A DNA stretch of 64,000 nucleotides from Acidobacteriota bacterium. GTDB taxonomy: Bacteria; Acidobacteriota; Terriglobia; Terriglobales; SCQP01. The stretch covers positions 1 to 64,000 of the forward strand of contig JAJYIU010000016.1 of the NCBI GenBank assembly GCA_021789895.1, in the 5' to 3' direction. This document shows positions 31,435 to 34,041 of this stretch, piece after piece. The notes beneath the pieces were generated by a model. The model had not been told where the DNA came from and ran no database searches. It was given only the letters and a program-made list of their open reading frames with translations. The translations under genes and the position numbers were made by a program. The stretch's first letter is position 1; the number at the start of each line of letters is the position of its first letter.

Positions 31435-31839
31435 ATGCCTACACTTCAGAGCATGGCTCAAGCCAACCCACCCGTTCCAGTCCTCATGCCGGAGCGCGCC
31501 ACGGAAATCGAACTGAGCGCCGAAATCGAGGAGCTGCGGGACCACGCCGAATGGAAGGAGGGCGTGGCCCGCAAAACACTATTGCAGCACCCCGGCTTTC
31601 AAATTACGCTGCGGATGATGCGGGCGCAGGCCTGCATTCCCAAGCACAGCAATCCCGGCCGGGTCAGCGTGCAACCGCTTTTCGGCAAGCTGCGCATGCG
31701 AGCCAACGGGCAAAACTTCGATTTGACTCCAGGAAAGCTGCTGGTGCTGGACCAGTCGGTGCAGCATGACGTGGAAGCGCTGGAGGACAGCGCATTCCTG
31801 CTGACGGTGTCCGAGCCGGTTGACGCCCGGCAGGATTGA
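31435..31839 (+). CDS. Cupin-domain protein
   Basis: 134 residues with one small beta-barrel. Conserved-looking parts are ARKTLLQHPGFQITLRMM, then ACIPKHSNPGRVSVQPLFGK and PGKLLVLDQSVQHDVEALED, which match the two cupin motifs (motif 1 HxNPxxxxVxPLxG; motif 2 PGxxxxLxxxxxHxVEA). Metal binding by the His residues is plausible, but substrate is unknown. GGGAGG lies eight bases before the ATG. The gene is followed 108 bases later by the TGA-containing rhodanese gene on the same strand. Confidence 0.8.
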   Translation: MPTLQSMAQANPPVPVLMPERATEIELSAEIEELRDHAEWKEGVARKTLLQHPGFQITLRMMRAQACIPKHSNPGRVSVQPLFGKLRMRANGQNFDLTPGKLLVLDQSVQHDVEALEDSAFLLTVSEPVDARQD

Positions 31840-31947
31840 AGCCGGAGCCGTGCTGCGGTGGAGGAAGGGCCGGACTCGGGCGCGATGATCCGCATCGCCG
31901 GCGGATCAGCGGCAAGCGCGACGAGGGCCGGTAAAAGGAGATGTTTC

Positions 31948-32301
31948 ATGACAGCGCAGAAACCTACACCGGTTGCAAGAATCAGCATTAACGAGGCGCA
32001 AGAGCTTAGCAGACGGCCGATTTTCGTGGATGCGCGCAGCGCCACGGCGTTGCGCAGAAATCCGCTGCAAGTGCCCGGAGCCATGCATGCGCCGCTCCAG
32101 GACCTGGCGAAATCGGCAAAGCGGCTGCCGCACGGGCGAGTCCTGGTAACGTACTGCACTTGAAGCGGCGAGAAGGCCAGCGCCCGGGTGGCGCGGGAAC
32201 TGCAGGCACTTGGATTTCGGGAAGTGTACGCTTTGCGGGGCGGCTTCAAGGCCTGGCAACGCGCGGGTATGCCGGTCGAAGCGGTAGACGGCCAGCGATG
32301 A
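31948..32301 (+). CDS. Rhodanese-domain protein with in-frame TGA at the catalytic position (candidate selenoprotein)
   Basis: Reading through TGA at 32161-32163 gives one complete 117-residue rhodanese domain. Residues 1-71 end VLVTYCT; after the TGA comes SGEKASARVARELQALGF and then VYALRGGFKAWQRAGMP, the normal end of the fold. In Cys-containing relatives the residue six before the SAR of this helix is the catalytic Cys (as in YC-x-CPNEA-x-SAR), which places the TGA exactly at the catalytic site (U72). Codon use and frame are continuous across it, there is no second lesion, and the ATG follows AAAGGAG. A hairpin with a G-rich loop sits at 32177-32197. Alternative: recent TGC-to-TGA mutation, that is, a pseudogene. 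Sec-containing rhodaneses are known from metagenomic surveys as I recall. Confidence 0.68.
32177..32197 (+). promoter_or_regulatory. Candidate bacterial SECIS-like hairpin
   Basis: GCGCC (32180-32184) and GGCGC (32190-32194) form a 5-bp stem with loop CGGGT; CC at 32177-32178 and GG at 32196-32197 extend it past one A-G mismatch. The loop begins 21 bases after the TGA and has a G at its second position, matching the general spacing and loop rules for bacterial SECIS elements. GC-rich coding sequence makes chance hairpins common, so this is supporting evidence only. Confidence 0.4.
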
Positions 32302-32826
32302 TGGCAAGCAGCAACAGCTCAAACTTGTACCCGATTCGCATACGTAGCGGAAGTTTTGTTGCGTAAAAGGAAATTGATTTCACCTTTGGCTTTCAAGGAC
32401 CGGCGGGGCCGTTTGATTCGAGCTTGGGATTTCAAGCAATTGAGCAATCTCGGTAATTGCATTCCTGATGAGGGTTGCCCTGAATGCGCCCAATCTGCGT
32501 GCACGCTGATCACCTGAAGCCGCGGTTGCAACGATCCGCCGGGCGCACGGGAAGAGGAAGTAATGCCGAACTTCGTACCGGCAAGAAATACCTTGCCCAT
32601 CGCGATGCAGCCGGTTACGGCCGTGCAGAGCGTGTACCCCGCTTTGGTGGAAACGCCCTAGGCGGCAACGATTTACGGAGCCGCAGCCACGCGCTGCGTG
32701 GGTAGCCGCTCTCGGGCAGAAATGCTGTCCGACTCGGCCGTTATGATTATGGTCAGCGCGCAAGTGCGCGCGGCGGCCGGACAAATTCATACTATGCGGC
32801 GAGAGCAGCAGTTCTGGAGAATGAGC
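32302..32826. other. Gene-free 525-base region, possibly decayed
   Basis: No intact gene on either strand. A plus-strand frame starting at 32563 with a fair Shine-Dalgarno ends at a TAG after about 32 codons, and minus-strand frames around 32380-32600 read into one another across stops, as in a decayed gene, but I recognise no family. A CCACGCGCTGCGTGGG-like palindrome lies near 32688. Confidence 0.4.
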
Positions 32827-33228
32827 ATGGAAATCAAACGATGCGGCGCACGGCCTTCCGGAAAAGGGACGGAGGAATATTTCACGGGAGCGGTCCGGGT
32901 GGATCCACTCTTTGAGGCGCCCGAGCCCGCCCGGGCGCGCGGCGCGAGCGTCACATTTGAACCCGGCGCGCGGACCGCGTGGCACACTCATCCGCTCGGG
33001 CAGACGCTGATTGTCACTTTCGGCGCCGGCAGGGTGCAGCGATGGGGCGGTCCGGTGGAAGAAATACGGCCTGGCGACGTGGTCTGGTTCGAGCCGCAGG
33101 AAAAGCATTGGCACGGCGCGAGCCCGACGGCGGCCATGACGCACATCGCCATTCAGGAAGCGCTCAACGGGAAGGTGGTTGACTGGCTGGAAAAGGTCAG
33201 CGACGAGGATTATCCAGGCCGTAAATAA
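32827..33228 (+). CDS. Cupin hydroxynitrile-lyase-like protein
   Basis: 133 residues. From memory it is strikingly similar to the manganese-dependent cupin hydroxynitrile lyase of Granulicella tundricola. The stretch [20 protein letters not shown] is nearly identical, and the metal ligands fall at the same positions: His53, His55, Gln59 and His94, with His96 beside them (EKHWHGASP). That enzyme makes or cleaves cyanohydrins in vitro; the natural role is unknown, and related carboxymuconolactone-type cupins may simply handle other small carbonyl compounds. The ATG at 32827 has GGAGA six bases upstream and gives the same N-terminus (MEIKR-G). Confidence 0.85.
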
Positions 33229-33414: not shown

Positions 33415-34041
33415 ATGCGTTTCTTACCATCGAGATCGTGGGGCCGGCTGGCGCTGATCGCGGCCGGACTGGTTGGCGCCGGCATATTAGTTTTCAGCCT
33501 GGGCACCCGCTCCTACAGCGCCGCGGCGGTGGCCGCGCCACGCGTCAAAACCGCGGCACCCGCTGCCGCGACGCCCTCCACTACCGCCGCGTCAGCCGCC
33601 GAGGCCATGCCGAGGATGGCGATGCCGGACATGCCGGGGATGGCGATGCCGGCTAGCAGCGCGCCGCATGCCGGCCCCGCCTGGGCGACGCCGGCGTATC
33701 ACAGCCATGCGCCGCGCGGGCCGCTGCCGGCCACCCTGCCACCGTCGCAGTTCACCGATCCGCGCGTACAGGCGATCTACGCCATGGCGGCCAAGATCGA
33801 GAAGGTGCTCTACCAACAGCCCTGTTATTGCCGCTGCGACCGCGAACTGGGGCACACCAGCCTGCTCTCCTGCTATATCGGCACGCACGCCTCTATCTGC
33901 CAGGTCTGCCTGATGGAAGCCGCATTCGCCTACCATGAAACGCAGCGGGGGCGCACTCCGGCGCAGATTCGCCGCGAGATCATGCAAGGCGCCTGGCGGA
34001 AGATCAATTTGGAGCAGGTCATCGCGCGCTATGCCCATTGA
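33415..34041 (+). CDS. Exported PCYCGC-motif protein (PCYCRC variant)
   Basis: 208 residues: an N-terminal hydrophobic anchor (about 10-30), an Ala/Met/Pro-rich low-complexity region (about 35-110, with repeated MAMPDMPGM-like text that could bind copper), and a Cys-rich domain. The domain has PCYCRC (Cys137, 139, 141), SCYIGTHASICQVC (Cys153, 162, 165) and a C-terminal helical part ending in the 'IRREI' type segment. This arrangement is the PCYCGC-motif family of unknown function, often near metal or redox genes. The metal-binding look is my inference. It starts at 33415 and is followed by metK 183 bases later. Confidence 0.82.
   Translation: MRFLPSRSWGRLALIAAGLVGAGILVFSLGTRSYSAAAVAAPRVKTAAPAAATPSTTAASAAEAMPRMAMPDMPGMAMPASSAPHAGPAWATPAYHSHAPRGPLPATLPPSQFTDPRVQAIYAMAAKIEKVLYQQPCYCRCDRELGHTSLLSCYIGTHASICQVCLMEAAFAYHETQRGRTPAQIRREIMQGAWRKINLEQVIARYAH

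Follow-up and report, generated by a model that had tools for sequence, protein, structure and literature searches.

A rhodanese-domain gene with an in-frame UGA codon, very probably read as selenocysteine, in an Acidobacteriota genome

In the window (the whole stretch of 64,000 nt of Acidobacteriota DNA that was analysed), we found a short gene for a rhodanese-domain protein in which codon 72 is TGA, and comparison with relatives in the same order indicates that this UGA is very probably decoded as selenocysteine (Sec). The coordinates of the gene and its features are given in Table 1. The frame translates as MTAQKP...VLVTYCT, then the TGA, then SGEKASARVARELQALGF...GGFKAWQRAGMPVEAVDGQR, and ends at a stop of its own that is likewise TGA (32299-32301). 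The codon-72 TGA is the only internal one, and the preliminary description of this DNA was correct in calling it the single lesion of the frame. When the read-through protein was compared with Pfam, the Rhodanese family (PF00581) was matched at E = 1.9e-12 and 48 bits, above the gathering threshold of 22.2, which confirmed the domain assigned earlier. An AlphaFold model built from a six-sequence alignment (mean pLDDT 86.2) has the strand and helix order of a rhodanese, and solved rhodaneses matched this model at Z scores of up to 16.0. As modelled, the fold is that of an ordinary sulfurtransferase-like rhodanese, and the product is probably cytosolic. A normal gene caller would wrongly end the protein early, and standard annotation would give a 71-residue fragment or a pseudogene.

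Table 1. Features of the rhodanese gene in the window, numbered from the first nucleotide of the window.
Feature	Position	Strand	Remarks
Rhodanese-domain gene, predicted selenoprotein	31948..32301	+	117 aa with the codon-72 TGA as Sec
In-frame UGA, very probably read as Sec72	32161..32163	+	codon is TGA in 27 relatives and TGC/TGT in 18 others
Good Shine-Dalgarno, AGGAG	31936..31940	+	7 nt 5' of the ATG; read from the sequence
Cys70 codon, first residue of the C-T-U/C motif	32155..32157	+	best alignment with the usual rhodanese catalytic Cys
Putative bacterial SECIS hairpin GCGCC-CGGGT-GGCGC	32180..32194	+	5-bp stem GCGCC/GGCGC, loop CGGGU

Neighbouring genes were also inspected. The upstream gene (31435-31839) had been described as a cupin gene, a label that was not sustained, as no Pfam match was obtained and an ectoine-synthase match was weak (E = 0.008). 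A cupin protein is encoded at 32698-33228 (+), where the (R)-mandelonitrile lyase model NF049940 was matched at 198.7 bits (cut-off, 140). About 1.1 kb downstream of the TGA rhodanese gene, 33415-34041 (+) encodes a CYCXC family (seleno)protein in its Cys form (NF041379, 98.4 bits against a cut-off of 90), with a match to Pfam PCYCGC.

For the comparison of codon 72, 298 genomes of the same order were searched, and loci were then fetched and read. Among the fetched loci, which were the best matches together with those flagged for a TGA and hence are not a census, YCT-TGA was present at the identical codon in 28 (the window gene and 27 relatives), and TGC or TGT was present in 18 others (YCTC or FCTC); codon 72 was either TGA or a Cys codon in these relatives. 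The closest relative, from genome G007, is 55% identical to the window protein and has the rarer YCTUS(G/H)EK loop. Identity between the two amounts to 33/60 before the TGA and 24/39 after it, and on either side of it the third position of codons is the most divergent. Because identity is maintained past the TGA and third-position differences are highest, the downstream part is under protein-level selection. The 3' half is as conserved as the 5' half and carries no other lesion, which agrees with the earlier remark that the frame looks coding on either side of the TGA; the loss of purifying selection downstream that had been named as an argument against a selenoprotein was not observed.

In a phylogenetic tree, the window gene (on a longish branch, 0.55) and its G007 relative were sister to 14 small TGA rhodaneses with support of 92/91, and the Cys forms of the order made up one group beside longer TGA proteins. 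The distribution of the gene is patchy: within the family it was found in the window genome and one other only, of 14 genomes, and a TGA rhodanese was absent from a genome of the same genus. When the contigs of genomes were scanned with the single window protein as query, no match was obtained; when an alignment was used as query, the scan returned only Cys-type antiporter-like rhodanese fusions, because Sec was back-translated there as Cys codons. The genes around the G007 locus and three others have nothing in common with the window except the rhodanese, and context is therefore silent on function.

The preliminary description had also pointed to a hairpin of 5-7 bp with a G-containing loop, the hairpin beginning 16-21 bases past the TGA. 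Published rules for bacterial SECIS elements specify a loop of 3-9 nt, a stem of 4-16 bp and a spacing of 16-37 nt (PMC13188914), together with a G in loop position 1 or 2 and a minimum free energy (MFE) of at most -7.5 kcal/mol (PMC13188914). The window hairpin conforms to all of these rules: it begins 16 nt after the TGA, its 5-bp stem closes a 5-nt loop with G at position 2, a spacing of 21 nt separates the UGA from the loop, and the MFE of the 15-nt hairpin alone is -7.6 kcal/mol. In context, the MFE was -11.7 kcal/mol and the mean pair probability was 0.91 with the ribosome-covered stretch left out; folded over 54 nt unconstrained, the window sequence prefers a different structure, and the clean hairpin appears only beyond the ribosome footprint.

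The same element was seen across the relatives. When the 28 TGA loci were aligned without gaps, columns 20-24 were found to pair with columns 30-34, enclosing a 5-nt loop whose second position is always G. Pairing holds in 98.6% of cells, two of the pairs are changed on both sides and so are compensatory, and pairing fell to 21-56% when the partners were shifted by 1-3 columns. A null was generated by keeping the protein and drawing synonymous codons from the same genes (2000 draws). Of the 27 distinct TGA sequences, 25 had all five pairs, where this null, which treats related sequences as independent, gave a mean of 1.3 and a maximum of 6; no Cys gene among 18 had the full stem (mean under the null, 0.63), and the null probability of the window hairpin by itself was 0.044. 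When nt +14 to +42 were folded by MFE, at least four of the five pairs formed in 28/28 TGA genes and in 8/18 Cys genes. The stem is thus kept with the TGA even where the encoded peptides differ (SARVA, SASLA or SARAA) and in its full form is gone where the codon is Cys, and these matched Sec and Cys genes constitute an unusually clean natural test of bacterial SECIS elements. The hairpin first noticed in the window has held up, with 5 bp and a start 16 nt after the TGA, and across the set it exceeds what chance would give.

Genes for the synthesis and insertion of selenocysteine were then sought in the same genome, and all four that had been named beforehand were present. The tRNA-Sec (selC) has the anticodon UCA and scored 66.8 bits, above the cut-off; selA was matched at 511 bits, selB, together with its neighbours, at 296.7 bits, and selD at 357.5 bits. 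The SelD of this genome (L018, on contig C6) is itself a selenoprotein, with TGA at the Sec position of the GUAGK motif (AAGUAGKLSP), and 3' of this TGA lies a 7-bp hairpin with a GGU loop, as would be expected for a bacterial SECIS. Judged by its gene content, the organism is predicted to make selenocysteine. A plain rhodanese gene without TGA (L054, contig C33, 15572-15886, minus strand; YCRSPYC) adjoins selB.

Moreover, selA was present in 28/28 genomes with a checked TGA rhodanese, compared with 136/298 in the order sampled (hypergeometric 5e-11, a figure that overstates independence as the genomes are related), and in 4/19 genomes whose best match was a Cys form. Two genomes from a wider list of TGA matches (G144 and G211) had no convincing selA match, and tRNA-Sec was present in both; because both are drafts of 260-350 contigs, the missing selA is likely an assembly gap. 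Taken together, the Sec machinery, the shared TGA, the SECIS and the association with selA support the selenocysteine rhodanese that the preliminary description had proposed.

The position of Sec72 within the active site was examined by alignment. The C-T-U/C motif is invariant in 46/46 sequences, and the window protein has it as C70-T71-U72, a CxU motif. The usual C-x-x-G-x-R-S active loop is absent from the window protein, in which the corresponding C-T-U-S-G-E-K-A-S is two residues longer and lacks the Arg. Cys70 was matched to the usual catalytic Cys by both hhalign profile-profile alignment and MAFFT, and in the profile-profile alignment Thr71-Sec72 form an insertion of two residues in the loop; a gapless phmmer alignment to the solved rhodanese 6mxv placed Sec72, not Cys70, at the usual catalytic position. 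Of the earlier claim that the TGA falls exactly at the catalytic Cys, part can be kept: Sec72 does lie within the catalytic loop, but Cys70, two residues earlier, aligns best with the nucleophile. From the alignments, an exact coincidence of Sec72 with the catalytic Cys is possible.

Based on these findings, a mechanism can be proposed. SelA and SelD would make Sec-tRNA(UCA), which would be delivered to the codon-72 UGA by SelB sitting on the hairpin 16 nt further on; the ribosome would then continue as far as the TGA stop at 32299. The resulting protein would have Cys70 and Sec72 together in its active-site loop (C-T-U), able to make and break a Se-S bond. Either sulfane sulfur or an oxidised thiol would be taken up by Cys70 (or Sec72); its resolution by the partner residue would give a Se-S bond, and the pair would be reset by a cellular thiol, for example thioredoxin. 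At somewhat less than even confidence, we infer a Sec-assisted thiol/sulfane-sulfur reaction, its exact form and its substrate included.

Another reaction has to be weighed against this one. The Sec protein might serve redox chemistry (as a thiol peroxidase or disulfide reductase) or selenium handling instead of sulfur transfer, with the rhodanese fold acting as a scaffold only; such a role would oppose the proposed reaction, not Sec insertion. CxU pairs are typical redox motifs, which favours this role, and the lengthened loop without its Arg also speaks for it, but the predicted fold is that of an ordinary sulfurtransferase-like rhodanese. We place this alternative only just short of an even chance. 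The C-T-U motif itself suggests a loop for redox or sulfur handling, and no assay for C-T-U was found in the literature searched.

Sec insertion itself could be disputed if a nonsense mutation had made a pseudogene of a former YCTC rhodanese gene. The TGA is indeed one base away from TGC/TGT, and the longish branch of the window gene also speaks for this reading. However, the same TGA recurs in 27 other loci, further lesions are lacking and conservation downstream equals that upstream, the full hairpin stem is limited to TGA genes, and the genome has the complete Sec machinery; on the strength of the common TGA, the conserved 3' half, the SECIS and the machinery, we rejected a pseudogene as very improbable. 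Decoding of the TGA as another amino acid, by a reassigned code or a suppressor tRNA, would agree with a frame open on both sides but was rejected as scarcely credible, given that TGA is the normal stop of this same gene and of the preceding one, that relatives have Cys and not Trp at the position, and that both a SECIS and the Sec machinery are present.

Sec-type codons were also encountered in other rhodaneses of the order. Longer rhodanese proteins have a TGA at the same YCTU codon (L041, L048, L074, L075, L079 and L080, and likewise L082-L084, L086, L089 and L090). The two that were checked (L041 and L080) carry a fused DedA/VTT membrane domain, and open frames of ~320-374 aa suggest that the remaining ones are DedA/VTT fusions as well. 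The Cys forms may descend from within these longer TGA proteins and have lost the full SECIS stem in the process. A different rhodanese, whose TGA lies elsewhere in the loop (YCWGHD-TGA-QLSAKAALQLAE), was found at L070 (G007:C22) and L056 (G025:C340); the L070 protein scored only 49 bits against the curated selenoprotein model NF041203, and this type is possibly a further Sec rhodanese subfamily. For the order as a whole, we tentatively suggest that the C-T-U rhodaneses are a large uncurated selenoprotein subfamily of two builds, one small and soluble and the other made of DedA/VTT membrane fusions in which Sec gave way to Cys and the SECIS was lost; their Sec-Cys loop might catalyse something other than classic sulfurtransfer, perhaps with membrane coupling in the fusions.

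Several known systems resemble the window protein. E. coli GlpE has the rhodanese fold (Z 13.8, rmsd 2.7 over 105 residues, against the model), as does the rhodanese domain of YgaP, but both have a shorter loop with one Cys and no Sec. Fusions annotated as DedA family protein / thiosulfate sulfurtransferase GlpE, as in a Burkholderia relative, have a rhodanese part with YCTC at the same place and occur in the same order; they differ from the window protein in being longer and Cys-containing and in lacking the full SECIS stem. Among the best matches listed for literature on DedA, rhodanese and selenoproteins, none contained both DedA and selenoprotein.

Surveys from that of the Sargasso Sea onwards have listed rhodanese selenoproteins (PMC1088965, PMC9312934, PMC13188914). 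Forms 1, 2 and 4 and TsoB likewise have Sec in a rhodanese domain, but in UxxS, UxxG or UxxxxU motifs instead of CxU (PMC13188914), and TsoB, unlike the window protein, is a DsbD-like fusion. A CxU form is also among those published, with the model NF041203 (PMC13188914). This model, rhodanese_LYCAU ('rhodanese-like protein form 3'), scored best among NCBIfam models for the window protein and matched 9/9 aligned sequences, and it shares with them the rhodanese domain and Y-C-x-U, with Sec two residues past Cys. However, the window protein scored 79.9 bits and a closer relative 107.3 bits, below the curated cut-off of 115, which was passed in 0/298 genomes of the order; the model thus misses the window gene and every relative in the order sampled, where a single TGA is present in dozens of the matches listed. 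The window protein further differs from LYCAU in its YCTU motif, and some of its relatives in their fusion to a DedA/VTT membrane domain. Because NF041203 is the best match and yet its cut-off is not reached, and because rhodanese selenoproteins have already been published, we conclude that the window protein is a new variant of the known CxU rhodanese selenoproteins and not a new kind.
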